Shown: positions 37,802-57,299 of the stretch, piece after piece
Numbering within the stretch: the first letter of the stretch is position 1
How the letters are laid out: each line of letters opens with the position of its first letter
Assembly: GCA_008017155.1 (NCBI GenBank)
Contig: SSGX01000033.1
Span: 1 to 64,000 of the forward strand
Direction of reading: 5' to 3'
Length of the DNA stretch: 64,000 bases
DNA from: Neisseriales bacterium
Lineage (GTDB): Bacteria > Pseudomonadota > Gammaproteobacteria > Burkholderiales > UBA11063
Program-made: the position numbers and the translations under genes
Notes under the pieces: model-generated
What the model was told of the DNA's origin: nothing
Databases searched by the model: none
Seen by the model: the letters and a program-made list of their open reading frames with translations, nothing else

Positions 37802-37939
37802 TGGTTTGACCTTTATAAAAAACATCAACACCAATATTCTAACACATAAAACCGCGTTATTCAATACATTTTTATTGTTTTACATTAAATTTTTAACCTA
37901 TAAAATCACATATTGAATAAACAACATTAAATTTATATC

Positions 37940-38917
37940 TTATTTAGGCGATAATAACAGGCCTACTTTGCCATTTTGTTGACTAAATAATACTTGATAG
38001 TAGTTAAAAATATTATTCCCAACATTAACTATTCCACCATTATAATCACTATCGTAGGCTGAGATTGGATCGGTAAGATAAATTTGATATATGCCTAAAC
38101 TAGTACTTAGATTAGCATTTACCTGATTTAATAAGACATCATTTGGAGTAACGTTAAGCCATGATTGTAAAGGTGAAAACTGAAAGCTAGATGATGCACC
38201 ACTATCAAACAGTGAGTTATATATACTACTTCCAGATGGATCACCAGAAATTGTGTAATTAACTGGTATTGCCATATCATTCCAACATGGATTAGTTGCA
38301 GCTGATGTCACTCCATAACTATTACAACTACTTTCTGTCAACTGAACTGTGCCAAAACTAGCTAACTCTGATTCAGAAAAGTTACCAAACTTGATACTTG
38401 AGCTAGGAATATCAAGAATAAATGACTGATTATACGGATACGGTAAAAATAGCTTTGCCGAAACGTTACTGTCCATTCTTAGTCCCAGAATAGCATGATT
38501 CTGCCTAGGATTTGGATTAACCACACCGTCGGCTACAACGATTACAGGAACTTGGTTACTCGTAGTGATTATGGAAGCTCCACTTTCACCATTAAGAAGA
38601 CTTAGGTTTGTATAGCCTAGAAACCCTGAGCGGGGGTTTGTACCGTGATCATAGGTATACGTTATACTCTCATTTGTCATAAGAATATTTGAACCAACAT
38701 AACTAGATTCAATTAAGAGGAAATCTGAACCAGTATCAATTTCCGTAAGGGTTGCAGGACCACCACCTACACTTGAGTATATGGCAAATTTACTCGCATA
38801 AGTAGTAGTTGGAATAGTTACTGATGCATAACTAACAGCATTATTAGAACTACTACCATTATTACAAGCAGAGATAAAACCCATAAAAGCAAAAACAACA
38901 AAATTTGTATAACGCAT
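37940..38917 (-). CDS. Lipoprotein with a pepsin-like (bilobed aspartic protease) fold
   Basis: The lipobox ISAC (Cys18) is followed by NNGSSSNN. Two active-site-like loops are present: DTGSDFLLIESS at Asp61, which aligns well with pepsin DTGSSNLWVPSS, and LFDSGASSSFQF at Asp238. Their 177-residue spacing is close to the 183 of pepsin. HAILGLRMDS (141-150) matches the pepsin GILGLG strand and VGNNIFNYYQVLFSQQNGKVGLLL the C-terminal strand. It may be an active surface protease, or belong to the betaproteobacterial DUF3443 group, which has similar DTGS motifs. AAGGGG precedes the ATG. It follows the NlpC/P60 lipoprotein by 16 bases. Confidence 0.75.
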   Translation of the reverse strand: MRYTNFVVFAFMGFISACNNGSSSNNAVSYASVTIPTTTYASKFAIYSSVGGGPATLTEIDTGSDFLLIESSYVGSNILMTNESITYTYDHGTNPRSGFLGYTNLSLLNGESGASIITTSNQVPVIVVADGVVNPNPRQNHAILGLRMDSNVSAKLFLPYPYNQSFILDIPSSSIKFGNFSESELASFGTVQLTESSCNSYGVTSAATNPCWNDMAIPVNYTISGDPSGSSIYNSLFDSGASSSFQFSPLQSWLNVTPNDVLLNQVNANLSTSLGIYQIYLTDPISAYDSDYNGGIVNVGNNIFNYYQVLFSQQNGKVGLLLSPK

Positions 38918-38933
38918 AATACCCCTTATTTTC

Positions 38934-40184
38934 TTAATTGTTTATTCCCCCAAGAACACGGCGAACACCCCAAACCTGATTCCGATAGAAACAGCTAGTA
39001 AATGCTCGATAATCCGGTCCTTGGTAATGGCTATCTGTAATAATCCAGTTACCTTGATTAGCGGTAACAGACCACCAAGGCATAGGTTGAGATTCACACT
39101 CCCCATTTGCAACACCATAAACGTCAGTATCCGTTTCTGGCGCAATCATACCATTTGTAATCCAAGCACTTTGCCCAATTTTTTGACCAGTCCACATTAC
39201 AACATGCGTAACATTTTGACGCGGATTATTTCCACATGCTTTATCTTGAAGCGCAAATGGATCTGAAGCACAACCTGCAATATATAATAAATCACCAGGT
39301 TGCAAATTATTCAAAGCACTTTCCGTGACCCCATTAGGGTTGTAACTACCATTACTCTCAAATACTGAAATATACCCTCCATGTCCATTACAGCTAGTAT
39401 TGTCAGCCATCCCCTTTGGCAAATTAACTGTTGTACCATCATTACAAACTAAATTACCCGCAGAATATAAACCAATAGTATCTTGTGCAGCTGAATCTTG
39501 GAATCCTTGCATATTTGGAGCAAGGTTTTTCTGAGTTGATTCCTGCCCAGCTTGCATTGAAACATCACTGGTAAAATATATTGATTCTGCATAGGCGTAG
39601 TTCAATTTGGTATAGTCACTACAATCTAAACCATAACCATAATTACCAGTTGCATATGCTTTACCAGAAGCTGTGTTATACCACGCCTGTTGAGATTCAT
39701 TGCCTATACCTGAGTAATTCCAACGAATCAAACTTTCAATTGGTATAGGTGGCATAACATCAGTACTAGCACTACATGACTCAAAACTAGTTTTTGCATC
39801 TGGGTTTGGCGTTACACCATCCATATTATATTCTGGATACCAAGTTGGAATATGATGGTGACAGTAATTTACCTTCTGAGTTACCCAGTAATTAGCAGCT
39901 GCCAATACTCGTGATTGCTGCCATACAATACTAGCATTACAAGATTCAAGATTAGTTGGAAATTGTAAATTAGCAAGGCTTGGGCCCCAAATAAAATCAT
40001 ATGGTAAACTAGCGAGACTTACTCCAGATAAACTATCAAAATTTGCAACATTAAGAGCACAATAATTGGGCGGTGGTGTAGGTGTTGGAGAAGAAGAAGT
40101 AGAGCTACTCCCATTATTGCAAGCACTCACACCAAGTCCTGCCAAAATCGACAATAATAAACTATCTATCTTTCTCACTACCAT
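38934..40184 (-). CDS. Lipoprotein with a divergent NlpC/P60-like domain
   Basis: Signal and lipobox VSAC (Cys22) are followed by NNGSSSTSSSPTPTPPP, a long tether. The C-terminal half looks like an enlarged NlpC/P60 amidase: YGYGLDCSDYTKLNYAYAE (nucleophile Cys), NNLQPGDLLYIAG, and VTHVVMWTGQ (His). The mature part is cysteine-rich, suggesting disulfides. Hydrolysis of peptidoglycan peptides or amides is the family role; the N-terminal 150 residues are unassigned. AAGGA sits too close to the ATG (2 bases) but nine bases before a GTG at 40178, which may be the true start. It is the first gene of a pair with the pepsin-like lipoprotein. Confidence 0.7.
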   Translation of the reverse strand: MVVRKIDSLLLSILAGLGVSACNNGSSSTSSSPTPTPPPNYCALNVANFDSLSGVSLASLPYDFIWGPSLANLQFPTNLESCNASIVWQQSRVLAAANYWVTQKVNYCHHHIPTWYPEYNMDGVTPNPDAKTSFESCSASTDVMPPIPIESLIRWNYSGIGNESQQAWYNTASGKAYATGNYGYGLDCSDYTKLNYAYAESIYFTSDVSMQAGQESTQKNLAPNMQGFQDSAAQDTIGLYSAGNLVCNDGTTVNLPKGMADNTSCNGHGGYISVFESNGSYNPNGVTESALNNLQPGDLLYIAGCASDPFALQDKACGNNPRQNVTHVVMWTGQKIGQSAWITNGMIAPETDTDVYGVANGECESQPMPWWSVTANQGNWIITDSHYQGPDYRAFTSCFYRNQVWGVRRVLGGINN

Positions 40185-40272
40185 AATCCTTAATATAAAT
40201 TTTCATGATTATAAATATTAACTAATACTTTATTCAAATGCAATTTTGCATAACTAATATTTATATCAGAAT

Positions 40273-41667
40273 TTATATGACCTTTGAATAACGAGCAAGA
40301 TCTCTTTTCTTTTGCAGATATTTATCAAATATCATTGCTACATTACGGATTAAAAATCGACCTTTATTTGATACAGTAAACCCATCGGCACTGATACTAA
40401 TTAGGCCAATCTCTTCAATCCTTTGTAACTCTTCCAATTCAGAAACAAAATAACGTTTAAATTCAAGCATAAAGCGATTTTCTATTTCAGGATAATTAAG
40501 TTTGAACTGACACATAATTTGCTGAATAATGTAACGTCTTATTAAATCATCCTGATTAAGAAGGATTCCTCTTAAAATAGGAAGCTGGTGATTATCAAGA
40601 CTACGATAATAGCTATCTAAATCTTTTACATTCTGATAGTAGCTATTTCCAACAAAACCTATAGATGAAACGCCAAAGGCTAACATATGTGTATCTGCAA
40701 AAGTTGAATAACCTTGAAAATTTCGCTGTAAACTTCCATTGTCAAGAGCTATAGACAATTCGTCTTCAGGAACTGCAAAATGATCCATTCCAATAAACTT
40801 ATATCCAGCTCTAGCCAATCTCTCAACGCTTTCCTGCAAAATTGTCAGCTTATCACTGCTACTTGGTAAATCTTCCTCTCTTATCCTAGTTTGAGACATA
40901 AATAACTGTGGGATATGAGCATAGTTGAATAAAGCAATTCTTGCGGGTTTAAGCACATTAATTACAGTATCAATTGTGCTTGCAAAACCATCTATAGTTT
41001 GAAAAGGTAATCCATAAATTAAATCTATACTTGTTGATTTGAAACCAAGCTCATTTGCTTTATTTAATACTCTTAATGTTTCTTCAAGTGGCTGAATTCT
41101 GTTCACTGCCTTCTGCACTTTATAATCAAGGTCTTGAACCCCGAGAGAAACTCGGTTAAAACCTTCTGAATAAAGAGCTTCAACAAACTCATCAGTTACA
41201 TGGCGAGGATCAAGCTCCATGGCTATTTCTGCTGCAAAACTTAAATCAAAATAACGATGAACTAATTGCATAATTTGATGTACTTCAGCAATCGAAAGCC
41301 ATGAAGGTGAACCACCCCCAAAATGTAACTGAACTACAGGTAATTTACGCCCATTAAATAATTCAGCATATAAAGCAAACTCTTTAGCAAGATATTCAAG
41401 ATAGGTGGTTATAAGTGCTCTATTATTTGTAATTATCTTATTACAACCACAATATAAACACAAAGTATTACAAAATGGAATATGAATATACAGCGAAATT
41501 GGTTCACTAAGCTCATTATCAAAAACTTTAGCTAACTGCTTTAATTGTGTTTCTTGGTTAAACTCAAGCGAAAATCTGTCTGCTGTAGGATAAGATGTAT
41601 AACGTGGAGCATTGGTCTGGCAACGCTCAATTAATTCACGATCAAAATCAATTTTAGTGTAGTTCAT
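40273..41667 (-). CDS. hemN: Oxygen-independent coproporphyrinogen III oxidase
   Basis: 464 aa radical-SAM enzyme. The cluster motif is IHIPFCNTLCLYCGC (Cx3Cx2C), then QLHFGGGSPSWL and MELDPRHVTDEFVEAL; the C-terminal domain is complete. It converts coproporphyrinogen III to protoporphyrinogen IX without oxygen. An extended -10 about 100 bases upstream probably drives it. No clear FNR box (TTGAT-N4-ATCAA) was found. Confidence 0.95.
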   Translation of the reverse strand: MNYTKIDFDRELIERCQTNAPRYTSYPTADRFSLEFNQETQLKQLAKVFDNELSEPISLYIHIPFCNTLCLYCGCNKIITNNRALITTYLEYLAKEFALYAELFNGRKLPVVQLHFGGGSPSWLSIAEVHQIMQLVHRYFDLSFAAEIAMELDPRHVTDEFVEALYSEGFNRVSLGVQDLDYKVQKAVNRIQPLEETLRVLNKANELGFKSTSIDLIYGLPFQTIDGFASTIDTVINVLKPARIALFNYAHIPQLFMSQTRIREEDLPSSSDKLTILQESVERLARAGYKFIGMDHFAVPEDELSIALDNGSLQRNFQGYSTFADTHMLAFGVSSIGFVGNSYYQNVKDLDSYYRSLDNHQLPILRGILLNQDDLIRRYIIQQIMCQFKLNYPEIENRFMLEFKRYFVSELEELQRIEEIGLISISADGFTVSNKGRFLIRNVAMIFDKYLQKKRDLARYSKVI

Positions 41668-41890: not shown

Positions 41891-41994
41891 CTGAAAATAC
41901 GCACAACTGTGTTATTTTCCTATTCCTAGAAAGCAGGAGATTTTACAATCACCTGCTTTCCCATAAGAAACCTGAGTGATTATGCTCAGTTTTA
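41891..41994 (+). ncRNA. Candidate small RNA
   Basis: On the plus strand TGTTAGAAT (41876-41884) is a good extended -10. About 45 bases on, GAAAGCAGG (41929-41937) pairs with CCTGCTTTC (41952-41960), and CTGAG (41972-41976) with CTCAG (41985-41989) followed by TTTT, a terminator. No open frame of useful length lies inside, and no plus-strand gene precedes it. It could be a roughly 100-base RNA. The -35 is poor. Confidence 0.4.
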
Positions 41995-42021: not shown

Positions 42022-43101
42022 TTAAGACAGCTGTAATTCAAGCCAAACCTCATTCACATAAACTCTGGTTTTGGGATCATAATTTTTAAAACTATGCATT
42101 TTAGTCATATTTTTAGGATAAATCCAGTCAATCTGCTTTAACTCTGGATTAATATTCTTCAATGCGGGTAGATTCATAATACTTGCTCCAGTAGCCGCAG
42201 AAAGTTCAATAGCACTTGATGGTTCAAGAAGATAATTGATCAGCGTATAAACCTTATCAATATTTTCAGCAGTTTTGGGTATAACCAGATTATCTAACTC
42301 ATACATATTACCCTCACGCTGCAACTCTGCTTCTATTGTTACTGGCTGCCCGGCTAATTTCTGATCAGCGATAGTTTTATAAATATCAACCGAATAACTC
42401 ATGGCAACCCAAATATTACCGCGTAATAAGCTACGGTAATAAGTATCGCTATCAAATTTTGCCCAATACGGTTTAGCTCGCTCGATCAAATTACGCGCAG
42501 CATCCAAATCCTCACGCTTAGTAGAGTTTGGATCTTTACCAAGATATAATAACGCAGCAGCAAATACATTACGCTGTGAATTTAATACCGTTATCTTCCC
42601 CTTGAGAAGTTTTAGGTATTTGGGATCAAAGATTATTGCCCAGCTATCCGCTTTAATTCCAAGCCGCCTAAAAACATCTTTATTATAAGCAAGCATGACA
42701 TTATCATAGGCATATGGAACTGAATACTGATTACCATTATCATAAGGAGGATTTAAAAATTGTGGGTCGATATTTCTAAGATTCGGCAGACGAGTTTTAT
42801 CAAGCTGTTCTAGCTTACCCATTCTGATTAAAGAATCTACGGCATAGCTTGTTGGAACAATAATATCATAGCCACTGGCACCAGCAGCCATCTTTGCCAG
42901 CATTTCATCATTTTCATTAAAAAAATTCTGCTCTACCCGACACTCATATTTACTCTTAAAAGAGTTAGCGGTATCATTGGCAAGATAATTAGCTGCGATA
43001 TAAATATTTAAAATGCAATCTTTTGCAAAAACATTATTATTCAGCACAATTAAGGCAAGAATAAATCTGGCTTTTCGCAAATAATTAATTAATATAGTCA
43101 T
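42022..43101 (-). CDS. PotD/PotF-like periplasmic binding protein in a siderophore operon
   Basis: 359 aa with an N-terminal signal (RKARFILALIVLNNNVFA) and the spermidine/putrescine-binding fold: LNIYIAANYLANDTANSF, ASGYDIIVPTSYAVDSLIRMGKLEQLD, VPYAYDNVMLAYNKDVFRRLG, and INYLLEPSSAIELSAATG. No matching permease or ATPase (PotABC) is adjacent. It follows the permease gene by 10 bases, so it is the last gene of the siderophore operon. It may capture a polyamine, a siderophore or a breakdown product; the usual ligand of the family is a polyamine. Confidence 0.85.
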   Translation of the reverse strand: MTILINYLRKARFILALIVLNNNVFAKDCILNIYIAANYLANDTANSFKSKYECRVEQNFFNENDEMLAKMAAGASGYDIIVPTSYAVDSLIRMGKLEQLDKTRLPNLRNIDPQFLNPPYDNGNQYSVPYAYDNVMLAYNKDVFRRLGIKADSWAIIFDPKYLKLLKGKITVLNSQRNVFAAALLYLGKDPNSTKREDLDAARNLIERAKPYWAKFDSDTYYRSLLRGNIWVAMSYSVDIYKTIADQKLAGQPVTIEAELQREGNMYELDNLVIPKTAENIDKVYTLINYLLEPSSAIELSAATGASIMNLPALKNINPELKQIDWIYPKNMTKMHSFKNYDPKTRVYVNEVWLELQLS

Positions 43102-43111
43102 AACCTTGGAA

Positions 43112-44311
43112 TTATTTGATAGTTTTTAATAAGCGGAAACTATTATAACTGGTAATTAAAGATAAGGATGCACCAATTAAAAATAAACCAGAATAGCCAC
43201 AATATCTAGCAACAAAACCACTTGACATCATGCCAATGCTATAAATTATTATTTCAGCACATAAAAGTATTGCCATATCAGTTGCAATCTGCCCTGATTT
43301 AAGATTATGCATGAAAATTGTATATAAAACTACCATTTCCATTGCCCGACATGCCATGTTAATAACTACAATTACAAGAATAAATGATGTAGCAAAATTG
43401 CCAAAAATAGCAGGAAGTACAAATGCACTATAACAGATAGTTCTTAATAAACCAAGCAGCAAGAGCCAATATCGATGAGAAGAACTATTTGTTAAAAAAC
43501 GAGAGATAACTCCGGCAGCAAAAAGATTAACTGTAACACCACTAATACCCATTACTGAACCAATAATCGAGAGTGAAATGCCCTTATCAATCAGAAAAGC
43601 TTGTTGCATCCCCATTACCAAACCTTCACACCCACGATAAGTAAGACATAAGTAAAGAAGTTTCCGATTCCCTAAGTTTTTAATAAAGTTCAAGACTGAT
43701 GGTGATTTGGTTTTATCAATTTCGTTAGCCAATAATGAGTTTTCCTGAATTAAGACCGCTAAAGCTCCAAGGAGAATTGATACAAATATAAACTCAAATA
43801 AAATCGAGAGTGCCCAACCATAATTGGCATATAAAATCATAAATAAACCACCACCAGCAAAGCTACCCAATGCCGTACCAATTACAAGAGCATAGTTCCC
43901 ATAAGATATTTTATCGTTAGGCAACTGTTCATAAATAAATGCACTACTCGCAAGATAATGAGTTGCTGCCGCCAACAACATTACTATAATTAGCGTAAAA
44001 CAAAACCAGCCATTATCTTTAGGGGTGCCAAAAATTAATAAAAGTAAACAAAAAGCAATCATAAACTGTGAAGGGATTAGCCAGCATTTTCTCTTACCTA
44101 GCTTTTGATTATAAAATTTATCAAGAAGTGGTGCCCATAGAAATTTTAATGCCCAAGGTAACATCAGTCCACCAAGTAGCCCAACCATCACCAAGCTCGC
44201 ACCAGATTTCCTTAATATCCCAGGCAAGGCAAATGTTGTCAGATATAATGGAATACTATTGGAAAACGACAGTACTCCAATAACCAAGAGGTTTCTTCGA
44301 TAATTTTCCAT
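43112..44311 (-). CDS. MFS permease, AmpG/RhtX-like, probably siderophore uptake
   Basis: 399 aa with about twelve membrane helices. GGLMLPWALKFLWAPLLDKF near residue 50 is the signature of AmpG and of the RhtX/FptX permeases that import ferric siderophores across the inner membrane. It is less like the drug-efflux MFS proteins that export siderophores. It lies 4 bases after the acyltransferase gene, in the same operon. Direction of transport is inferred from family only. Confidence 0.78.
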   Translation of the reverse strand: MENYRRNLLVIGVLSFSNSIPLYLTTFALPGILRKSGASLVMVGLLGGLMLPWALKFLWAPLLDKFYNQKLGKRKCWLIPSQFMIAFCLLLLIFGTPKDNGWFCFTLIIVMLLAAATHYLASSAFIYEQLPNDKISYGNYALVIGTALGSFAGGGLFMILYANYGWALSILFEFIFVSILLGALAVLIQENSLLANEIDKTKSPSVLNFIKNLGNRKLLYLCLTYRGCEGLVMGMQQAFLIDKGISLSIIGSVMGISGVTVNLFAAGVISRFLTNSSSHRYWLLLLGLLRTICYSAFVLPAIFGNFATSFILVIVVINMACRAMEMVVLYTIFMHNLKSGQIATDMAILLCAEIIIYSIGMMSSGFVARYCGYSGLFLIGASLSLITSYNSFRLLKTIK

Positions 44312-44315
44312 CAGA

Positions 44316-45281
44316 TTAACTGGCTAGATAAATATGACTATTATCAGCAAGAATCATTTGTGCTTGCTTTAACGCCTCTTCCTTACTTGCAACGGGAATA
44401 CAACGAAAAGGCATTCCGTTAATAATAGCTGGACTGTTTAATTTCTGTATCATCTCAGTATCTGTAGTTACCCTAAGCATGGCTAGACAATATTCTGCTA
44501 GAATAATTTTATTTTGCTTGAACCAACGCATCTGAAGTTTCCGAGCTTCCTGAGAAAATTGATAACAATCATCAAAAGTACTAATAACAACATATGGCGT
44601 CTTTGTTTTAGTAATTTGGTTAAGCTTAGTAAGCCACTTCGCTACCTGCAAGTCATTTGGATACGATGGAAAATGAAGAAACAATAGTGGTAATCGAGAA
44701 TCATCATAAGTAATAACTGAAGGATTTTTATGATAAAACTGCTCTTTAGTTATAGCATAAAGATTAGCTGTCTTTTCAGGCAAGTTTAGTTGCCCAAGCT
44801 TAGTAAATCCAAGGGTATTTTCAATACTACTTAATTGTTTAACATTAATATCTGGCTCGATTAAAACTCGCTTAGCTTTTTCACGACTAAAGAGATAATC
44901 GCTTAAGCCACGTATAATTAATTTACTATATCCTTTACTAAGTTGAGAAGCTTCACCAATTAATAGATGTATCCCATAATCTCCAGCTACTACCGGAAAA
45001 TAATCATTGAGCCTATCATTAGGAGCAAAATAAGTCTCGGCATAAGCTGAAATTTTACCATTGATGCTTAGAAGCCATAGCTTCTGGCTCTTTTTACCAA
45101 GAGCATCAAGTAGATAATTTTTTAGTTTATCAATTGACTCATGAAGTTGCCAAGTTTTGGCAACATGCTCCTCTTTCATCCATGAAGAGATACGATCAAA
45201 ATCACGCGCATAATTAAGCGCTATAAACTCAAGCTGATGTCCTGTTTCAGCACAACTATACTTATATTCTATATTATACAT
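44316..45281 (-). CDS. Siderophore acyltransferase (IucB/AlcB/RhbD GNAT type) with extra C-terminal domain
   Basis: 321 aa. Residues about 20-185 form the siderophore-type GNAT domain (DFDRISSWMKEEHVAKTW, ISAYAETYFAPNDRL, DYGIHLLIGEASQLSKGYSK, KRVLIEPDINVKQLSSIENTLGF). This would acylate the hydroxyamine made by the monooxygenase to a hydroxamate. Residues about 195-321 form a second domain (ITYDDSRLPLLFLHFPSYPNDLQVAKWL ... FRCIPVASKEEALKQAQMIL) that resembles SpoIIAA/STAS-like single-domain proteins. E. coli IucB is of similar length but carries its GNAT part at the C-terminal end. The start overlaps the previous stop as TAATG. Confidence 0.8.
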   Translation of the reverse strand: MYNIEYKYSCAETGHQLEFIALNYARDFDRISSWMKEEHVAKTWQLHESIDKLKNYLLDALGKKSQKLWLLSINGKISAYAETYFAPNDRLNDYFPVVAGDYGIHLLIGEASQLSKGYSKLIIRGLSDYLFSREKAKRVLIEPDINVKQLSSIENTLGFTKLGQLNLPEKTANLYAITKEQFYHKNPSVITYDDSRLPLLFLHFPSYPNDLQVAKWLTKLNQITKTKTPYVVISTFDDCYQFSQEARKLQMRWFKQNKIILAEYCLAMLRVTTDTEMIQKLNSPAIINGMPFRCIPVASKEEALKQAQMILADNSHIYLAS

Positions 45282-47134
45282 TAGCTTACTTTCTTATCTA
45301 TAATTGAAAATCTTTTTTCATCCCAGTTACCCCAAGAAAATTTACTAGCTGGATTATCAACCACTCCGGTAGATTCAACTTTTGGGCGGGCAGCATAATC
45401 CGCATAACCTACTTCCAGTAAACGCAAGCGATTAAGAGTTAATTTTTTAAATTGTGGTTTCAAAATATTTATCTCTTCAATTCTTGTGGCAAATTCTGGA
45501 TGCTCTGAATGATATTTAGTAATGACCTGATATAGACTTTCCCAAAACTGCGACTCTGGATAACAAGCATATGTAGCAAGAATATCTGATAAATAACGAT
45601 ATAAAACTACAAATAACCCCGTCTGGATGAACTGTGCCAAATCAGCATCAGGCAAACGATAAAGTACTTTTTTCAATTCATCAGGCAGATTCATAAGCGC
45701 TTCATTATCAGACTTACTGATATTTACATCATCAATAAAATCTTTTATAACGAGTCGTTTCGGATAGTTATTTTCATCGAGTACCAGCATTGTATTTTCA
45801 CCGTGCGGCGAGTAAACAACCCCATATTTGTAAAGCCAATGCAAAAGAGGTGGAATTACAACTGTAAAGAGTTTTTCTAACCACTGATTAATTGAAAGTC
45901 CAGAGCTAGCAATTAGATCCATTATAAATGGCTGATTTTGATTGTCAATATGAATCAGTGCCGCCATAGTAATTACTTTTTCATCACTTGCTAGATAATT
46001 ACTCACACTTTCACGCCAGATAACTCCTAATAGCTCCTGATACTGATAAGGAATACCTTGTAGCTGATTATATACCGGATGAGGACAATTTATACTAGCA
46101 ACTTCACCAAGCATTATCAAACCAGTTTGTTGTAAAAATTTATCTTGACTATAAACTTCTTTAATCCATGCTGTTAATAAGGGTGCAAGCCTAGTTCGCT
46201 CATTGGGTAATCCACGATAAACGGCAGTATTAAAAATACTTAATGGCAATTTAACTTGAAATTTACTCTTATCAGTCTGATTATTAAAGCTTCGTATCGA
46301 CTGAGTTGGCAGATAGCAATCACTACTTTTACCAAGCCAAATAATCTCTTTCAAAGCTATTTCTCTGGCAAAGAGTTGAATGATTTGACGCTGCCATTGC
46401 CATTCATGTATCGGCATATAAAAATAATCTTCAGGATTTAATCCGGCATTATTCATTTCTGTATCAAATTTTCTGATTCCCTCAGTTCCAAGCTCGTTCA
46501 GGATTAGTTTCTTATAATCAAGATTTTTTATTGCCTTATACTCAGCGCATGAGGACTTGATGGCAATCCATGATAACTGTTGTAAATTGGCTGATTCTGG
46601 GGCATGTGTGAGATATTCATCATACGAAAAACCTAGGCGACCTTTATTGACGATAAACCATGGATGGGCACGCATAAACCCTTCAAGCTCTGCAGCACTT
46701 TCAAGAGCAAGAAGATGTTGATTAATATTTTGTGGATTAGCAAGTAAGTGACAATCCGCAATCAAAGTATGGTTTAATTCGCGGATCAAATGCCCCACCG
46801 TCAAACCATCTATTCCAATTTGCTGATAAATACTAGCAATAAAGTTACCTACCTGCAATTCTGAAGATTTGTTATTTTTATTAATACAGCAAATACTTTC
46901 AGGAATCACCTGCCAGCTGCCAAAGATGCGTGGACTAGCAGTAAAAATATATTTTAAATCCCGATTTATTACCAAATGATGCTCATAACTATCATCCGAA
47001 AGTTTATAGATTTTAGTTTCAATTAATTCTTCATACATAAATTCACTAAAAATCTTAGCCAACAGGTTCCGATTTACTAGCTGCCAGTAATCGGCTCTAA
47101 TTGCGTCTTTAAATAATGATTGATTTTGATTCAT
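45281..47134 (-). CDS. NIS siderophore synthetase, type C (IucC/AlcC/RhbF-like)
   Basis: 617 aa of the IucA/IucC family. The ATP and citrate site shows as AHPWFIVNKGRLGF (about 161-174), MPIHEWQWQRQII, PTQSIRSFNN and the C-terminal FhuF-like region (GVVYSPHGENTMLV, IKDFIDD). The NKGRLGF and HEWQWQ variants group it with the type-C enzymes that attach the second hydroxamate arm to a citryl-monoamide. AAGGAGAGG precedes its ATG, 25 bases after the first synthetase. A type-A partner lies just upstream. Confidence 0.88.
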   Translation of the reverse strand: MNQNQSLFKDAIRADYWQLVNRNLLAKIFSEFMYEELIETKIYKLSDDSYEHHLVINRDLKYIFTASPRIFGSWQVIPESICCINKNNKSSELQVGNFIASIYQQIGIDGLTVGHLIRELNHTLIADCHLLANPQNINQHLLALESAAELEGFMRAHPWFIVNKGRLGFSYDEYLTHAPESANLQQLSWIAIKSSCAEYKAIKNLDYKKLILNELGTEGIRKFDTEMNNAGLNPEDYFYMPIHEWQWQRQIIQLFAREIALKEIIWLGKSSDCYLPTQSIRSFNNQTDKSKFQVKLPLSIFNTAVYRGLPNERTRLAPLLTAWIKEVYSQDKFLQQTGLIMLGEVASINCPHPVYNQLQGIPYQYQELLGVIWRESVSNYLASDEKVITMAALIHIDNQNQPFIMDLIASSGLSINQWLEKLFTVVIPPLLHWLYKYGVVYSPHGENTMLVLDENNYPKRLVIKDFIDDVNISKSDNEALMNLPDELKKVLYRLPDADLAQFIQTGLFVVLYRYLSDILATYACYPESQFWESLYQVITKYHSEHPEFATRIEEINILKPQFKKLTLNRLRLLEVGYADYAARPKVESTGVVDNPASKFSWGNWDEKRFSIIDKKVS

Positions 47135-47159
47135 TTGCCTCTCCTTGGGAAATTAGTTT

Positions 47160-48947
47160 TTATCTTGTTGATGGCTGAGCCTGTATGTCACTAGCTCGTG
47201 CAAAAAATTTATACTCCTGCCAACTATTATTTTGAACATCACGCGTGGCAGAATAAAATGGGTTCTTGATCTCAAGATAAACCGATTGCTGACTAAGTGG
47301 TGCAGTTAATTCATCAAGATCCTGAAGACGAGTAGCCAAATTATCTTTCATCGGTAAAGTTTGGCTATTTAGTAGGTATTCAAGATATTTATTCGTACGC
47401 TTGCCCCACTCTTGCTGTTTTTCTAACAAAAACTCAGTAAAGATAGTCACTAATACTTTTTCATCAATATAACCGGCATAGCCAAGAGCATTGATTACTG
47501 CCATGAGACTATTACATATGAGATAGTATGTAAAATGGTGTGCCACAAATTCGCTATCACCAGAAGCAAAATGGCTAAATATATACAAAAAGGAATCAAA
47601 CTCAAGCTTCTTCTTTTCAGTGATGTAGTAACCCTGACTGTCTCGATAGTATCCACCAATAGGTAGACCATTAGCATCTAATTCAATAAGTAAATTCTGC
47701 TGATGTGCTTCAAGCGCAATTTCTTTATAACTAAATAACCAAAGTAATGGTTCAATAGTAGTTTCAATAAATCGCCTAAACCAGATTTCAGCAGTTACCC
47801 TCTCTTCTAGATTAAGTTTTGCTGCCAGCTTTGGGATAATTGTATTAAAGCGGTTACCCTCTTTAAATGGATTATCTTGGCATAAAGCCGCAATACAGCT
47901 AACATTTGGCGGCTTACCATAAAATGGATTATCCCGAATTAATACCGCAGACTCTTCAATTAATTGTCCATCATGTTTCAGGCATAAATAACCCGGATCT
48001 TTTATTGCTTTAAAAAAAGGATAGCTCTGGCTAAATTCACTCGCAATCGGAGTTTGCCAAAATTCTGTAACTGCAATTGCCCGATCAAGTTCACGCGCCT
48101 GATTCATTCGTACCGAATTGGTAATCATCACATTCAGTGACATTTTAAACATATATTCAAACTCGCGAGAGTAAAGAGTACGAATTGAAGATGTTGCCTG
48201 AAATTTTTTACCAAGAGCACCAAGGTTAATCAATTCCCCATTGGCAATCATTTGCTGTACCGACTCTAAGGAAAGTAGATAATTTGCCTGCCACGGATGT
48301 AATGGTAGCAAAGACTTACCCTCTGGGATTTTCTGAGCTGCTAGATCATCTGCGATAAGTTTGGTAAGATTTATATTAATTCTACTATCACTATGAATAA
48401 CATCCTGACTAACAAGAAAATAATGTAACTGGAATAAATTAGCAAATTCGGGATAATATTTTAAATATTCACTTTGACTAAAACCATAGCAACTTTTTGC
48501 TGAAGGATGAAGTTGATGTCCGGATAATAATGAAGATTCACTTAACGCAAAATCAACTACTAAAGAGCTTAATCCTTTAACATCAGTAATATTCTCAAGA
48601 GTTACCGCCTGATTATGAAGACTATTTTCAAGCTGCCCTCTGAATTTAACTATCTTTTCTACTTTCAGATCATCTTTTAATTTTAGCTCCTCAAGAATAA
48701 AATCAAGCACTTGCCAAAAATCAATTGACTTTATCGTATCACTAGAAACCTGATAAACTGGGAAGGACAATTGGTGACGACCAGTTGCGGAATAATAATT
48801 AAGCTTTACCCATAAAATCACACCCACCTTGGGAAAATTAATTTCCAAATAATCATTACCTTGATGCTTAATCAGCGAATAATTATCTTTACCAAACAGG
48901 TAAGAGTTTAAGAAGCTTTTCAAACTGATATTAGTAGCCAAATTCAT
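47160..48947 (-). CDS. NIS siderophore synthetase, type A (IucA/RhbC-like)
   Basis: 595 aa of the IucA/IucC family, with GHQLHPSAKSCYGFSQSEYLKYYPEF (about 143-168), LPLHPWQANYLL, and ATSSIRTLYS. The HPxxK form and the following YYPEF fit type-A synthetases, which join citrate to the first hydroxamate. The frame reaches a TTG at 48959, but GGAG there is the ribosome site of the ATG at 48947, inside the last 17 bases of the monooxygenase gene. The assignment to type A is by motif memory. Confidence 0.87.
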   Translation of the reverse strand: MNLATNISLKSFLNSYLFGKDNYSLIKHQGNDYLEINFPKVGVILWVKLNYYSATGRHQLSFPVYQVSSDTIKSIDFWQVLDFILEELKLKDDLKVEKIVKFRGQLENSLHNQAVTLENITDVKGLSSLVVDFALSESSLLSGHQLHPSAKSCYGFSQSEYLKYYPEFANLFQLHYFLVSQDVIHSDSRININLTKLIADDLAAQKIPEGKSLLPLHPWQANYLLSLESVQQMIANGELINLGALGKKFQATSSIRTLYSREFEYMFKMSLNVMITNSVRMNQARELDRAIAVTEFWQTPIASEFSQSYPFFKAIKDPGYLCLKHDGQLIEESAVLIRDNPFYGKPPNVSCIAALCQDNPFKEGNRFNTIIPKLAAKLNLEERVTAEIWFRRFIETTIEPLLWLFSYKEIALEAHQQNLLIELDANGLPIGGYYRDSQGYYITEKKKLEFDSFLYIFSHFASGDSEFVAHHFTYYLICNSLMAVINALGYAGYIDEKVLVTIFTEFLLEKQQEWGKRTNKYLEYLLNSQTLPMKDNLATRLQDLDELTAPLSQQSVYLEIKNPFYSATRDVQNNSWQEYKFFARASDIQAQPSTR

Positions 48948-50283
48948 TTTGAACTCCAAAACTCTGAAATACGGTTTTTCTCGCAGTTTTATACACCATT
49001 CGATTACAAATAGTATTTATGATTACTGAGTTACGATAAGCACCCAAGCCAAGATCCGGTGAGCCAACTCCGTGAGAATGAAGACTATTATTTTGCATAA
49101 AGATTTTGCCTACTTTTTCTCCACTAATTTTAAGACTGAAGTCAGCATTTAATACATAATTTTTTTTGCTATCCTGTTTTAATAGGCTTGCTATTGGATT
49201 TAAAATTGATAAATCTGCCGAACGGTATCCAGTTGCCAAAATAAGCGCATCTGCTTCTAACTGAAACTTTGTTTGACTTAGGCAATTGTGCACATCAAGT
49301 AAAAGCATATTATCCGATATTGATTTACCAACCGAATCAAGACTGGTATTCGCAAGCATGGTAAGTGGCTGTTGACTATTCGCAATAGTCAAACGATAAA
49401 GTGAGTCAAAAATATCAGCAATTGTTTGTTTACTTATTCCCTTATACATCATATCCTGACAACCAATTATGTCTTGGCGAGTATTTTCTGGTAAAGTATA
49501 GAAATAACTCATATAATCCGGGCTAAAGTGTTCCAGGCCAAGCTTTGAATATTCCATTGGGAAAAATCCGCCCGACCTAGTAATCCAGTTGATATGTGGC
49601 TTATTATCCTTAATTGGATTACGGTTCAATAATTCAAGGACAATCTCTCCCGCACTCTGCCCAGAACCCACTACACAGATGTTATTTTTATCAGCTAGTT
49701 CAGATGCATAATTAACAAAATCAGCCGAATGATAGACTGGCAAATTATCTGGTATCTCAAGGCTCGAAGGGATATGTGGCTTAGTTCCAACTCCAAGTGC
49801 TATATGCCTTCCTTTATAAATTTCCCGTTGATTTGTATTAAGATCATATATTTCAACATGATAAATCTTACCTTCACTATCATTATCCGCTATAGAAATA
49901 TTTGTTACTTTAGTCGAGAAACAGATATTTTGTAGTTGGCTCGCAACCCATTGACAATAGTGATTATATTCTTTACGCAAAATAAAGAAATTTTCATAGA
50001 AGTAAAACTTATACAGCCGATTATGATTATGCAAATAGTTAAAAAAAGAATACTTACTAGTAGGATCTGCCAAGCTCACTAGGTCAGCCAGAAAAGGAAC
50101 CTGCAATGTTGCACTATCAAGCATCAGCCCCGGGTGCCAGTTAAATTCAGAGGATTGTTCAATAAATAGCGTATTTAGACCATCCACATTATCTGCAAGT
50201 GCAGCTAGACCAAGATTAAATGGACCTAAACCAATACCAATTAAATCATATACTCGCATTGAATTATTTTTTATTCTTTTCAT
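48931..50283 (-). CDS. N-hydroxylating monooxygenase (IucD/PvdA/AlcA family)
   Basis: 450 aa flavoprotein that hydroxylates the side-chain amine of lysine, ornithine or a diamine, first step of hydroxamate siderophores. Visible: FAD motif DLIGIGLGPFNLGLAAL, the FNWHPGLMLDSATLQVPFLADLVSLADPTSKYSF segment, NADPH motif VVGSGQSAGE, and the closing SHGVGSPDLGLGAYR. The whole is closest in style to IucD (lysine N6-hydroxylase), but the amine cannot be read from sequence. GGGAG precedes the ATG at 50283; the gene heads the operon and is controlled by a Fur-boxed promoter. Confidence 0.9.
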   Translation of the reverse strand: MKRIKNNSMRVYDLIGIGLGPFNLGLAALADNVDGLNTLFIEQSSEFNWHPGLMLDSATLQVPFLADLVSLADPTSKYSFFNYLHNHNRLYKFYFYENFFILRKEYNHYCQWVASQLQNICFSTKVTNISIADNDSEGKIYHVEIYDLNTNQREIYKGRHIALGVGTKPHIPSSLEIPDNLPVYHSADFVNYASELADKNNICVVGSGQSAGEIVLELLNRNPIKDNKPHINWITRSGGFFPMEYSKLGLEHFSPDYMSYFYTLPENTRQDIIGCQDMMYKGISKQTIADIFDSLYRLTIANSQQPLTMLANTSLDSVGKSISDNMLLLDVHNCLSQTKFQLEADALILATGYRSADLSILNPIASLLKQDSKKNYVLNADFSLKISGEKVGKIFMQNNSLHSHGVGSPDLGLGAYRNSVIINTICNRMVYKTARKTVFQSFGVQNEFGY

Positions 50284-50321
50284 TTTATACTCCCAAACGA
50301 TAGCTGTCTATTCCAGCGATG

Positions 50322-50351
50322 ATTATAAATGCAAATGAGAATCATTATCAA
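50322..50351 (-). promoter_or_regulatory. Fur-regulated promoter of the siderophore biosynthesis operon
   Basis: Minus strand: TTGATA (50346-50351), 18-base spacer, TATAAT (50322-50327). The Fur box at 50331-50349 matches the 19-bp consensus at 16 positions by my count and lies across the -35 and the spacer, so Fe-Fur would block RNA polymerase. Confidence 0.85.
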
Positions 50352-50559
50352 TTAATATTTTTATAAATTAAGCAAACTCTTTAAATTATTCTGAAATATA
50401 TATAATTAAATCAGAATATTAAATGAAATAAATTTTCGTAAAAAAATTACACCCTACACATATCCGTATTATTATTAATTCTAGCCATTCTCAATATATT
50501 TCAAACACATAAGTAAATATTACTCACTTTTTAACTAACCTCCATATATCTGCGCTTAT

Positions 50560-50614
50560 TTGACAAGTATGATTTTTTTATTTATAATCAGCACCGCAAA
50601 TAAGAATCATTCTC
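50560..50614 (+). promoter_or_regulatory. Fur-regulated promoter of exbB-exbD-receptor-tonB
   Basis: TTGACA (50560-50565), a 17-base spacer and TATAAT (50583-50588) make a fully consensus promoter. A second Fur box at 50596-50614 (14 of 19 by my count) covers the transcription start. The rest of the 347-bp gene-free region between the two Fur boxes is AT-rich with nothing else recognised. Confidence 0.87.
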
Positions 50615-50630
50615 ATTTAAAGGTATAAAT

Positions 50631-51248
50631 ATGTCAAGTTCTATTTCTTTTTTTAGCTCATTTGGTCCAATCGCTTACCTATTATTAGTCTCAAGCATAG
50701 CAATTATTGCAATAATAATCGAACGCCTGATTGTTTTATATAGCCAGCCTAAATTCAGCAAAAAAGATTATCAACAAATAATTATCAATCTACAAAAAGG
50801 TCAATTATTAAGCATACAAAAACCAAAAATAGCAATACGCTTTAGAGATTGGCTGGAGATCTTAGCGGGGAAAACTTTTACTCTTGCTGAAGCTGAAATC
50901 ACCCTACTCTTAACTGAACTTCGTAATAAATTACAAAAACCACTGGAATGGCTAAACCTATTTGCTATCGCTGCGCCAATGATGGGATTACTTGGAACAA
51001 TTTGGAGTATGAGCCATTCATTTGCGATCTTAGGCAAAGACCTCAATAACGGCAATCTAAATAAAATGATTGAATATCTTTCAGAAGCAATGTATGCCAC
51101 GGCATTTGGGATAATTTTGGCACTAGTGAGTATGCTTGGACTATATATACTTCGGCAAAAATCAGATAAATATCTCGATGAATGCGAGTTAGCATTTAAT
51201 CGAATTAGCTTAGCAATCCAACAGCAAGGAGCTAATAAGCATGATTAA
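50631..51248 (+). CDS. exbB: ExbB proton-channel protein
   Basis: 205 aa of the MotA/TolQ/ExbB family: N-terminal helix (YLLLVSSIAIIAIIIERLIVLY), a cytoplasmic loop, and two C-terminal helices including LNLFAIAAPMMGLLGTIWSMSHSF and YATAFGIILALVSMLGLY, the channel-forming pair. With ExbD it harvests the proton gradient for TonB. AAAGG precedes the ATG. First gene of the Fur-controlled uptake operon. Confidence 0.92.
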   Translation: MSSSISFFSSFGPIAYLLLVSSIAIIAIIIERLIVLYSQPKFSKKDYQQIIINLQKGQLLSIQKPKIAIRFRDWLEILAGKTFTLAEAEITLLLTELRNKLQKPLEWLNLFAIAAPMMGLLGTIWSMSHSFAILGKDLNNGNLNKMIEYLSEAMYATAFGIILALVSMLGLYILRQKSDKYLDECELAFNRISLAIQQQGANKHD

Positions 51249-51648
51249 ATCATCCAAAACCAATAAACTATCAATCAGTGAACCAAACCTGATTCCACTA
51301 CTTGATTTCATGCTGGTATTAATTGTAATGTTTGTTTTACTCGCGGGTCCTATAAAACAAGCTGTTGACCTGCCCTTACCCGAGGTGAAACCTGGAGTTG
51401 CAAAAAGTATTGATGAAAAAAACATTACTATCAGCCTCAATACAAAGGATGATATACAAATTAATGGCAATCATTATCGGTCAATTTCCGAAATTGAAAA
51501 CTATCTAAAAACAAACCTAAATGATATACAAGAAATTACGATTGCACCGCATAAAAACCTAGAAGTAGAAACACTGATGAAGCTATTTGCTATGTCTAAG
51601 TCTCTAGGAATTAAAACTGCAAATATACAGATTGAAGAAGAAAAATAA
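51241..51648 (+). CDS. exbD: ExbD biopolymer transport protein
   Basis: 135 aa with one membrane helix (LIPLLDFMLVLIVMFVLLA), including the Asp (LLDFMLVL) that carries protons, and a periplasmic domain ending in a peptidoglycan-like fold (ITIAPHKNLEVETLMKLFAMSKSLG). Overlaps exbB by 8 bases. Confidence 0.92.
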   Translation: MIKSSKTNKLSISEPNLIPLLDFMLVLIVMFVLLAGPIKQAVDLPLPEVKPGVAKSIDEKNITISLNTKDDIQINGNHYRSISEIENYLKTNLNDIQEITIAPHKNLEVETLMKLFAMSKSLGIKTANIQIEEEK

Positions 51649-51689
51649 AGCATAGACATCAATAAAATAAGCTCAAGGATAAACAAATA

Positions 51690-53753
51690 ATGAAACGAAA
51701 TAGAAAAATATTACCAACAATACTTATCTCACTTACCTCAGCAGTATTTGCTGACGACGTAGCCAGCCAGAATAATAATTTGGAACTCGACGATATTCAG
51801 GTAGTAGCAACAAGAAAACTCTCTGCTTCTGATACTGAATTAAATAATACTATTGAAAGCGGTGAAGTTATTCCTGCGATTAGTAAATCAAAACCTGTAG
51901 ATACAGTTCATGGTACAACTTATGAACTAAATGATATGGCAGGAATATCAATTGTTGGTGGTGGACAAACTGTCAGTCAAAGTATTAGCATTGGCGGTCT
52001 TGATCGAGATAATGTAATAGTTGGAATAGATGGAGTAAATAATTATTTTTCAAATTTTGGTGGAAATAATACCCGACTACTCCCTAGCCCATATTTATTT
52101 AAAAGTGTAACGGCAAGCCAAAGTGGGAATGATATTACCTATGGCTCTGGCTATATTGGTGGAGCAGTTGACTTTACTACAGTTGACCCAGAAGATATTC
52201 TTCATGGCGACAGATTGAGTACTTTTGCAACTGTTGGGGGTAATTCAGCTACTACTGGAGCTAACCTAAATACCGGGATTGCAGCAAAAACCGGACAAGT
52301 ATCATATTTACTCGATATTGTTGGTAGCAATGATAATAATATGACAACTGCCAATGGAAGTACCCTCCCATATTCTGCCAACCAGAACTTTCAAGGATTA
52401 GCAAAAATTGCAATCGATATCAGTAAGTCGCAAAGCTTGAAACTAAGCTTCCTAAATATGCAAAATGTCGGACAATATCCAATGGCAATTGTTAATAATG
52501 CAGGTGCCACCAATCCACCAGCAAACTTTAACTATAATCAGACTCAGACCACGCTAGACTATCGCTATAATCCAGATAACCCTTATTTTGATGTAGCAGT
52601 AAAAGCATCTTATCAGACAAGTAATTATGCAGTAAATCCGATTGATACCCCAGATAGCTGGCAAACACCACAAAATATCCAGTATAACACGGGCAGTATA
52701 AAGGCACAAAACACGACAAAAGTTGCTTGGCAAAAACTACTTTATGGAATTGAAGCAACCAATATTACAGCTTCTGATGCCTATAATGGAACTACTGTGC
52801 TTAATTTTCCAAATTCAAACCAACAACTCTATGGAGCATTTTTACAAGATAGTTGGGACATAACCAAACAAATTAATATAACCGCAGGTACTCGCTATAA
52901 TGCCTATACTAGTACAAATGGAACTTTGAATAATAGTGGTTCGCTATTTACCAATCAAATTGGAATTAATTATCATTTCCTACCGGACTGGCTCGCGTAT
53001 GCTGCATATTCGGAAGGTTTTCAGGCACCTACGTTATCTAATCTATACCTAGATGGCTATCACCAATATAGTAATGGTAATGGTTATATTTATCAGCCAA
53101 ATCCAAATCTGCAACCTGAAGTCGCACATAATAAATCGATTGGGATTAAATATGACAGTTGGTTCACACCTGAGCAGCACATGACAATTGATGTAAATGG
53201 ATTCCTGAATGATGTCTCAAATTATGTCTTATGGACTTATGCTGGACAAAGTGGCTCAACTAGTGTAACGCAAATGAGTAATATTGGTAGCGCCCAACTT
53301 TATGGTTATAGCATAGCATTACAATATACAAGCCCATGGGTTTTGGTAAATACTAACTTTACCAGTACCTACGGTGCAACCCAAGATGCTTATACAACTG
53401 GAAGTAATTATATTGTACCAGCTGGTGCACCATTACCAATACCACAGGCGAAAGGCTATCTCGGGTTAGGCTTCCCAATTGAACCTGTTGATAGTGTAAT
53501 TAAAACATATCTGAATTATGCACTAACCCAGACACGTACCCCTGTTAGTGTTTATGGAAATTTACCTGAAGCGCAGGGATATGCCATACTTGGGCTTGCT
53601 TATGACTGGAAACCAAAAGGTAAGTTAAAAGGGATGAGCGCACTTATTGGTGTTGATAATTTGTTGGACAGTTATTACCAGAATTACAACGGCTATAATA
53701 TGTATCCAGCAATGGGAAGAAATATTTATGCTCAAATTGGCTATAAATACTAG
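51690..53753 (+). CDS. TonB-dependent outer-membrane receptor
   Basis: 687 aa. Signal peptide (RKILPTILISLTSAVFA), TonB box near DDIQVVAT, plug domain (GISIVGGGQTVSQSISIGGLDRDNVIVGIDGV ... YGSGYIGGAVDF) and a 22-strand-type barrel ending in YAQIGYKY, with the usual aromatic last residue. It sits between exbD and tonB and opposite the siderophore operon, so it probably imports the ferric form of that siderophore. It is not an obvious IutA by motif; related receptors also take heme or other ligands. Confidence 0.88.
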   Translation: MKRNRKILPTILISLTSAVFADDVASQNNNLELDDIQVVATRKLSASDTELNNTIESGEVIPAISKSKPVDTVHGTTYELNDMAGISIVGGGQTVSQSISIGGLDRDNVIVGIDGVNNYFSNFGGNNTRLLPSPYLFKSVTASQSGNDITYGSGYIGGAVDFTTVDPEDILHGDRLSTFATVGGNSATTGANLNTGIAAKTGQVSYLLDIVGSNDNNMTTANGSTLPYSANQNFQGLAKIAIDISKSQSLKLSFLNMQNVGQYPMAIVNNAGATNPPANFNYNQTQTTLDYRYNPDNPYFDVAVKASYQTSNYAVNPIDTPDSWQTPQNIQYNTGSIKAQNTTKVAWQKLLYGIEATNITASDAYNGTTVLNFPNSNQQLYGAFLQDSWDITKQINITAGTRYNAYTSTNGTLNNSGSLFTNQIGINYHFLPDWLAYAAYSEGFQAPTLSNLYLDGYHQYSNGNGYIYQPNPNLQPEVAHNKSIGIKYDSWFTPEQHMTIDVNGFLNDVSNYVLWTYAGQSGSTSVTQMSNIGSAQLYGYSIALQYTSPWVLVNTNFTSTYGATQDAYTTGSNYIVPAGAPLPIPQAKGYLGLGFPIEPVDSVIKTYLNYALTQTRTPVSVYGNLPEAQGYAILGLAYDWKPKGKLKGMSALIGVDNLLDSYYQNYNGYNMYPAMGRNIYAQIGYKY

Positions 53754-53766
53754 TGGACAAAGATTA

Positions 53767-54417
53767 ATGAATAATAAAATCACCTTTTTGGCAATCACAG
53801 TCTCATTAGCTTTACATGGAGTAGTTTATTATAGCTGGCAACACAAAAAAAATAGCTGGCTTCTAGCTGAGACAGCTCTAAAAACCGGCACTAGTAGCAA
53901 AGGTCTGATTGAACACCTTAATCTAGTAAGTAAACCAACAGAAACTCCAAGTAAAACACCGAATAAGCAGGCAAAACCAGTTCAAAAGCAGATGGCTATA
54001 GCAAAAAAGGTTCAAAAACCCATTACTACTATTGCTAACAAAAAAATGGCAGTCGAACAACAAAAGCCTCATGAAATAAATGCAAGCAACAATAGTAGTA
54101 ATGCAGAAGCCAGCCAACAAATAACCCAAAAGGCAAAAGTAGAATATGCGCCGCCGCCAATTAGCTACCCACCAGAAGCCATTGCCCAAAATGCTAAAGG
54201 CAAGGTAAAAGTCAAAGCTTTAATTGACATTGATGGTTCTATAAAAAATATTGAAATTCTTGTTTCAAGTGGCTACAAAATTCTTGATGAAGAAGCAATT
54301 GCATGGTTTAAAAAAGTAAAATTTAGCCCAGCACTAAGTGCAAATGAAAAGATTGCCTCAGTTGTTACCCAGACAATCTCTTTCGACCTTAACGAGACAG
54401 GACATAATAATAGCTAA
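53767..54417 (+). CDS. tonB: TonB energy-transducing protein
   Basis: 216 aa. N-terminal anchor (ITFLAITVSLALHGVVYYSW with the conserved SxxxH), a Lys/Pro-rich spacer (KPTETPSKTPNKQAKPVQKQ), and the C-terminal TonB domain (PPPISYPPEAIAQNAKGKVKVKALID ... YKILDEEAIAWFKKVKFSPAL). The ATG at 53767 lies 13 bases after the receptor stop; the longer frame overlaps the receptor and lacks the signal anchor. Dedicated to the operon's receptor. Confidence 0.9.
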   Translation: MNNKITFLAITVSLALHGVVYYSWQHKKNSWLLAETALKTGTSSKGLIEHLNLVSKPTETPSKTPNKQAKPVQKQMAIAKKVQKPITTIANKKMAVEQQKPHEINASNNSSNAEASQQITQKAKVEYAPPPISYPPEAIAQNAKGKVKVKALIDIDGSIKNIEILVSSGYKILDEEAIAWFKKVKFSPALSANEKIASVVTQTISFDLNETGHNNS

Positions 54418-56824: not shown

Positions 56825-56829
56825 ACTAT

Positions 56830-57117: not shown

Positions 57118-57163
57118 AGTAAACCCATAATAACTATATTCTATATAAGGACATATTATATAT

Positions 57164-57182
57164 GAGAATGATTCGCAAATGC
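57164..57182 (-). promoter_or_regulatory. Fur-like box before feoA
   Basis: The minus strand reads GCATTTGCGAATCATTCTC, about 47-65 bases upstream of the feoA ATG. The half AATCATT is exact but the other half is weak (12 of 19 by my count). Confidence 0.6.
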
Positions 57183-57299
57183 AAGTGTTTTTTAATTTAT
57201 ATTTGATTACAAAAATAAATGTAAAACAATAAATAATAAACAACACATAAATTAAAAATTACTCCATCAACATTCAAAAAATAGATAGTGGTAGATTTA

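Follow-up and report, generated by a model that had tools for sequence, protein, structure and literature searches.

A probable schizokinen-class siderophore module in Aquella without diaminopropane genes, with putrescine as a candidate amine

The window is a stretch of 64,000 nt from contig SSGX01000033.1, which is a 76.8-kb contig of a genome (G000) that is 81% complete and has 36% G+C. The host is a freshwater species of Aquella (Betaproteobacteria). Six genes on the minus strand at 42022-50283, together with a divergent exbB-exbD-receptor-tonB block at 50631-54417, form a ten-gene module, which we consider to be in all probability a schizokinen-class system for making and importing a siderophore and not an aerobactin system. 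The operon has no rhbA or rhbB, so where its amine comes from is the main question. Tentatively, and with less confidence than we have in the class, we propose that the product is a citrate bis(N-acyl-N-hydroxy-putrescine) siderophore that arose after loss of the diaminopropane genes, that a polyamine-binding-type protein encoded in the operon supplies the amine, and that a STAS-like partner of RhtX-type uptake has been fused to the acyltransferase.

Of the five junctions between the six open reading frames (ORFs), three are gaps (25, 4 and 10 bases) and two are overlaps. In order of transcription they encode an N-hydroxylating flavoprotein monooxygenase of the alkyl-diamine type (48931-50283; Lys_Orn_oxgnase PF13434, 385 bits), a type-A synthetase of the nonribosomal peptide synthetase-independent siderophore (NIS) family (47160-48947; IucA/RhbC-like, PF04183 and PF06276 at 177 and 102 bits), a type-C NIS synthetase (45281-47134; IucC/DesD/RhbF-like, same families at 230 and 124 bits), a GNAT-STAS fusion (44316-45281), a major facilitator superfamily (MFS) permease of the RhtX/FptX/AmpG type (43112-44311) and a periplasmic solute-binding protein of the PotD/PotF family (42022-43101; SBP_bac_8 PF13416). 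Both synthetases pass the cut-offs for both of their families. From an alignment of relatives, the probable start of the type-A synthetase is ATG 48947 and not TTG 48959. The first-pass annotation had described these six genes, with gaps of 25 bases or less, as a complete citrate bis-hydroxamate operon in an order unlike iucABCD. Its genes and coordinates stand, Pfam backs every label, all of the enzyme families are present and the order is indeed different. Its account did not include the divergent exbB-exbD-receptor-tonB block, nor did it note that the acyltransferase has two domains.

The operon is not a chance arrangement, because orthologues of every operon gene keep the same order in three other Aquella genomes (G017, G014 and G022) and because the ratio of nonsynonymous to synonymous substitution (dN/dS) between the window and G017 is 0.05-0.20 for seven genes, the six of the operon and the receptor. 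The binding protein has a ratio of 0.094 and the GNAT-STAS protein 0.073; for exbB, dS against G017 is zero. The six genes are real, intact and under purifying selection. In G014 and G022 all ten genes of the module run in one direction, whereas in the window the exbB block is divergent from the operon.

The hydroxylase is the best guide to the class of siderophore. Its best matches among solved structures are S. sviceus DesB (SsDesB, 6xbb), FbsI (7us3) and DfoA (5o8p), and lysine 6-monooxygenase (5cqf) ranks last. Asp410 corresponds to SsDesB Asp391, a position taken by Gln in E. coli IucD; in SsDesB this Asp would likely repel the carboxylate of an amino acid (PMC8009421). The enzyme carries the motifs KLGLEHF and HGVGxPDLGL, which are common to enzymes of diaminopropane clusters, and not the KLTLE or HGFxxPDLGM-type motifs of cadaverine/putrescine enzymes. 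It is 42-45% identical to RhbE and to enzymes of cyanobacterial schizokinen clusters, 43% to SsDesB, 42% to FbsI and 31% to IucD. Since the values for SsDesB and FbsI are so similar, identity by itself does not tell the diamine branches apart; the motifs and trees do. We predict that the hydroxylase is a diamine enzyme. Its best NCBIfam match, a histamine hydroxylase model (TIGR04439, 479 against a cut-off of 700), was set aside, as schizokinen-type enzymes are nearer by context.

The two synthetases follow the same branch. Among solved structures the first is nearest to IucA (5jm7, E=1e-57) and the second to DesD, DfoC and IucC, which agrees with the type-A and type-C labels they had been given. 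In trees of all three enzymes, hydroxylase and synthetases alike, which have long branches for the distant rows, Aquella groups with the schizokinen/rhizobactin clusters found in cyanobacteria, in haloarchaea and in a Francisella-like genus, and the E. coli Iuc proteins stand far off. For the type-C synthetase, the nearest relatives outside Aquella are in clusters of cyanobacteria, a haloarchaeon, Bacteroidota and the Francisella-like genus. The operon thus combines a type-A synthetase, a type-C synthetase and a hydroxylase of the schizokinen/rhizobactin clade, and the label "aerobactin-type" in the first-pass annotation does not hold. Aerobactin proper, made from lysine by a rearranged operon, would call for the same enzyme set (type-A and type-C synthetases, hydroxylase and GNAT), and the type-A synthetase does have IucA as its nearest solved structure. 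However, it is very unlikely, because the hydroxylase Asp, the motifs and the trees place these enzymes away from E. coli Iuc. The hydroxylase lies on a separate branch from the IucD-type lysine N6-hydroxylases. The type-A synthetase is 27% identical to E. coli IucA against 34% to the ORF at the RhbC position of S. meliloti, and the type-C synthetase is 32% identical to IucC against 35% to the rhizobactin enzyme and 43-49% to those of cyanobacterial schizokinen-type clusters. The gene order is not that of iucABCD-iutA, and the receptor has no blastp match (E<=1e-4) to the IutA ORF, nor to the ORF at the RhtA position.

NIS synthetases are present in five of the 23 Aquella genomes: the window genome, G017, G014, G022 and G001. 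G017 is a complete A. oligotrophica genome in a single contig, and its ten module proteins are 93-100% identical to those of the window; the genome paper for A. oligotrophica P08T mentions neither siderophores nor iron. G001 is only 58% complete and its cluster contig ends inside the permease gene. The cluster was probably gained horizontally, because the score of the type-C synthetase drops sharply, from more than 1,230 bits within Aquella to 369 bits for the next match among 399 sampled genomes of the order.

The neighbour clusters of schizokinen type that we tested carry RhbA and RhbB, a diaminobutyrate transaminase and decarboxylase (for Xanthovirga only RhbB was tested), and the same two steps have been proposed to lead to schizokinen in Haloferax (PMC7407949). 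Absences in Aquella are reported from protein-family searches. By these, rhbAB is missing from the locus in the window, G017, G014 and G022, and the pair is present only in G001, where it adjoins a tonB-receptor-exbD-exbB block (contig C31). The absence of rhbA and rhbB had already been noticed for the operon; it holds throughout the complete A. oligotrophica genome as well. Both the hydroxylase tree and the type-C synthetase tree make G001 the sister of G014 and G022, so rhbAB was either lost twice or lost and then regained; the trees of RhbA and RhbB are not strong enough to place the loss in time.

We looked for other sources of a diamine in G017. It has no PF00282 protein, no dat-family protein over the cut-off and no Orn/Lys/Arg decarboxylase (PF01276). 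Its PF02784 proteins are LysA and SpeA only, and agmatinase-family genes lie near speA. The only endogenous diamine route that we recognise in this genome is the predicted SpeA-SpeB route to putrescine. Cadaverine is an option for the sister lineage alone, the one with LdcC: G014 has this enzyme (1094 bits) and G022 has a PF01276 protein of the same size. Several candidates were rejected. A PF00282 protein of the window genome, considered as a diaminobutyrate decarboxylase, is a glutamate decarboxylase, and a 405-aa PF02784 protein, considered as a lysine/ornithine decarboxylase, is LysA. An amine derived from spermidine made by SpeE was dropped, as spermidine synthase (PF01564) is absent from the five Aquella genomes; amine oxidases were outside this search.

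The last gene of the operon bears on the same question. Its product scores 174 bits with the PotF model (cut-off 636) and matches PotF and SpuD structures at E ~1e-48. Most Aquella genomes have a PotF-family protein, and at seven of the eight such loci that we read it comes after potABC-type genes, which in G017 are typed as PotA, PotB and PotC. The cluster copy shares 58% identity with the one encoded beside potABC, the housekeeping partner of PotABC, and is a duplicate of it. It stands at the operon end only in the window genome, G017, G014 and G022, the four genomes whose cluster passes the permease. In PotF residue numbering (Trp37, Asp39, Glu185, Asp247, Phe276 and Asp278; the PotF chain compared is a design variant), the equivalents of Asp247 and Asp278 are kept and Glu replaces Phe276; the cluster and housekeeping copies share Asp239 and Asp270. 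Neither the equivalog score nor the pocket residues place the protein in PotF/PotD. A cationic ligand is plausible, although the standard polyamine pocket is not present, and we infer that the protein may be an extra receptor for PotABC, made when the siderophore needs amine. Elsewhere in the genus, two tandem PotF-like genes follow potABC in A. oligotrophica and the window genome (L086:4481-9450) and one in G014 and G022, and a lone relative in G005 (L091:5429-6499), among unrelated genes, shares the motifs YDNV and IAANYLA.

Our preferred product, held at somewhat less than even confidence, would carry two putrescine-derived hydroxamate arms on citrate and, as a C4 homologue, would lie between schizokinen and arthrobactin. 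Putrescine is slightly favoured over imported diaminopropane because it is the sole diamine that G017 could make de novo by a route we recognise. A diamine-type hydroxylase and synthetases of the schizokinen branch make lysine and ornithine unlikely amines. The earlier suggestion that the amine is a common metabolite therefore survives for putrescine, which fits A. oligotrophica, but not for lysine or ornithine, and for cadaverine only in the sister lineage with LdcC. Several points weigh against our preferred reading. The hydroxylase has motifs identical to those of the rhbAB-cluster enzymes, which favours diaminopropane and not putrescine, and in the literature searched we did not meet putrescine tests of known RhbE-type enzymes. 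The incompleteness of the window genome means that gene absence rests on its close relative G017. The equivalents of PotF Trp37, Asp39 and Glu185 are replaced both in the cluster binding protein and in its housekeeping paralogues, and a clade-mate of the cluster copy occurs in G005, which has no NIS genes. The best score of the receptor is to a heme-receptor model, below the cut-off.

The amine could still be 1,3-diaminopropane that is scavenged, with the PotF-like protein of the operon feeding PotABC and ordinary schizokinen as the product. We think this rather unlikely, though it accounts well for the hydroxylase motifs and for a binding protein that ends the operon in four genomes without rhbAB, where the trees imply two separate losses of the pair, and a potABC operon is there to be fed. 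On the other hand, dependence on an external precursor would be unusual, the pocket of this putative diaminopropane-binding protein is unlike that of PotF, and G001 is too incomplete to show whether the binding protein and rhbAB are mutually exclusive. A different role for the binding protein, either in binding the ferric siderophore in the periplasm or as an NspS-like sensor, is unlikely. RhtX-type permeases are a single-subunit route that needs no ABC system, the resemblance to the potABC copy includes the shared Asp239 and Asp270, and the operon genes include no MbaA-like partner for a sensor. These points have to be set against a pocket that differs from PotF, a gene that directly follows the importer gene, and the existence of PotD-like NspS sensors (PMC9993111).

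The acyltransferase gene encodes two domains. Residues 1-187 (44721-45281) are a GNAT N-acyltransferase domain (Acetyltransf_8 PF13523, 108.6 bits over residues 25-166) with MbtK, DfoC and Rv1347c as relatives in the PDB. Residues 188-321 (44316-44720) have no Pfam match over cut-off. The full-length model is poor (predicted local distance difference test, pLDDT, of 60), so we used an AlphaFold model of the C-terminal domain alone (pLDDT 85). Foldseek matches this model to the STAS structure 4xs5, the DUF3478 structure 2q3l and SpoIIAA, with TM scores (target) of 0.55-0.69 to several STAS structures, which indicates a STAS/SpoIIAA-like fold. Three Francisella-like clusters (L109-L111) encode the STAS-like domain by itself, in a gene that lies between those for NIS2-GNAT and the permease (L109:10989-11393). 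Standalone homologues in other Proteobacteria have both a TonB receptor and an RhtX-like MFS permease as neighbours (L127, 7377-8603; L128, 7794-8255), or one of the two: an RhtX-like MFS permease in L129 and a TonB receptor in L132 (7694-8128) and L133; we recognised no such neighbour in L130 and L131. The family is found in 14 of 398 sampled genomes of the phylum (E<=1e-4). Because these homologues adjoin TonB receptors or RhtX-like permeases elsewhere, the domain, as modelled, is more likely to be an uptake component than a biosynthetic one.

The permease reaches 189.6 bits with TIGR02718 against a cut-off of 356, which is short of RhtX/FptX membership. It shares 32% identity with an ORF of pSymA, which itself scores 643 bits with the RhtX model, and is probably an inner-membrane ferric-siderophore importer, RhtX-like by context. 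The last two genes of the operon had been called unusual; this is fair for the binding protein, but the permease is of the RhtX-like importer type that also occurs in the Francisella-like clusters. On the plus strand, the divergent block consists of an exbB-like proton channel gene (50631-51248; PF01618), an exbD-like gene (51241-51648; PF02472), a TonB-dependent outer-membrane receptor gene (51690-53753; PF00593 and PF07715) and tonB (53728-54417; PF03544 TonB_C), whose ATG start is probably at 53728. exbB adjoins the NIS operon in G017, G014 and G022, and in G001 it is with the receptor genes on contig C31. The receptor is 65-99% identical across all five genomes that bear the cluster and always travels with the siderophore genes. 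Family models assign it no ligand; it is presumably a ferric-siderophore receptor.

Both sides of the module are read from a divergent control region of 347 bp (50284-50630) with two near-perfect promoters and two Fur-box-like sites. The promoter TTGACA-17-TATAAT at 50560-50588 (+) faces exbB, and TTGATA-18-TATAAT at 50351-50322 (-) faces the hydroxylase. We scored Fur boxes as matches to the E. coli consensus and compared them with 200 dinucleotide shuffles of the gap. The site GCAAATGAGAATCATTATC (50331-50349) scores 16/19 and overlaps the promoter of the biosynthetic operon, as expected for a member of the Fur regulon, and none of the 200 shuffles reached this score. The site GCAAATAAGAATCATTCTC (50596-50614) scores 14/19 and is just downstream of the exbB promoter. 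Both sites are kept in G017; G014 and G022 have a Fur-box-like site upstream of exbB with a score reached by 9% and 5% of shuffles. Because the predicted Fur sites sit on or beside both divergent promoters, expression is likely to be controlled by iron. At the other end of the operon there is a weak terminator-like stem-loop (41972-41989, minus strand), 33 bp past the binding-protein stop; the region has 8 such sites and 5.1 are expected from shuffles.

Put together, the proposed pathway would start with N-hydroxylation of a diamine by the flavoprotein and acylation of the hydroxylamine by the GNAT domain. Citrate would then receive its first unit from the type-A synthetase and its second from the type-C synthetase. 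The ferric complex would re-enter through the TonB receptor, powered by its own ExbBD and TonB, and the RhtX-like permease. An ancestral cluster would have had rhbA-rhbB and used 1,3-diaminopropane; with the pair lost in the window lineage, the amine would come from elsewhere. This is most likely the cell's own putrescine from SpeA-SpeB, which would give a C4 homologue of schizokinen, or else imported diaminopropane, and the PotF-family protein would most likely capture the amine for the housekeeping PotABC.

The genes on either side of the module are as follows. feoB and feoA (54923-57246), encoded on the other strand, are neighbours of the genes for siderophore import, which makes this an iron-uptake neighbourhood. 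Downstream of the operon, 37253-41667 holds hemN (oxygen-independent coproporphyrinogen oxidase) and then two lipoprotein-like ORFs, one at 38934-40184 with no Pfam match and one at 37940-38917 with a weak aspartyl-peptidase-like match.

Taken together, the five clusters in Aquella amount to a natural experiment, as one keeps the diaminopropane genes, four are without them, and the hydroxylase motifs hardly differ. Their products would show if the identity of the siderophore follows the enzymes or the amine pool. The common linkers of this class are diaminopropane, diaminopentane and lysine (PMC9989332), and a putrescine member, if true, would fill a gap in the series; a text search of an incomplete library for work that links schizokinen, arthrobactin and putrescine led to a paper in which no such compound is described. 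It would also mean that a siderophore line changed its backbone through amine supply and not through its enzymes. The recurring, unannotated STAS-like family points to a step in ferric-siderophore uptake that is shared and has yet to be studied.

Compared with known systems, this is a schizokinen-type system with ordinary enzymes and its own gene order, in which the amine supply is the real puzzle, and the product may be a variant that is not yet described. The phylogeny of the synthetases, which had been suggested as a check, puts both in the known schizokinen/rhizobactin branch; the gene order is nonetheless its own. Aerobactin (iucABCD-iutA) uses the same four kinds of enzyme and the same citrate bis-hydroxamate logic, but has a lysine hydroxylase with Gln, another gene order and another receptor. 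The arthrobactin/desferrioxamine-type enzymes DesB, DfoA and FbsI are diamine hydroxylases with the diagnostic Asp, as in Aquella, but belong to another hydroxylase branch, and the desferrioxamine cluster of Pantoea has one type-C synthetase where Aquella has types A and C. The systems for schizokinen and rhizobactin 1021 (rhbABCDEF of S. meliloti, all0390-0394, NIES-970, and Haloferax HVO_B0041-46) have the same A and C synthetases, diamine hydroxylase and GNAT, and the rhizobactin system of S. meliloti also has an RhtX-like permease. Unlike them, the Aquella operon is without rhbA and rhbB and has the GNAT-STAS fusion, the PotF-like protein and its own exbBD-receptor-tonB. The closest gene content is in the Francisella-like clusters L109-L111 (G391, G286 and G148), which we call so for their 31-34% G+C at the locus and for the DUF3573 protein that follows two of the three (L109 and L111). 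In L109 an aspartokinase-like amino-acid kinase (PF00696; L109:1415-2734) is divergent from rhbA and could feed aspartate semialdehyde to RhbA. These clusters have NIS1, hydroxylase, NIS2, GNAT, a STAS-like protein and an RhtX-like MFS permease, but unlike Aquella they keep rhbA-rhbB, have the GNAT fused to NIS2 and the STAS-like gene separate, and have no PotF-like protein.

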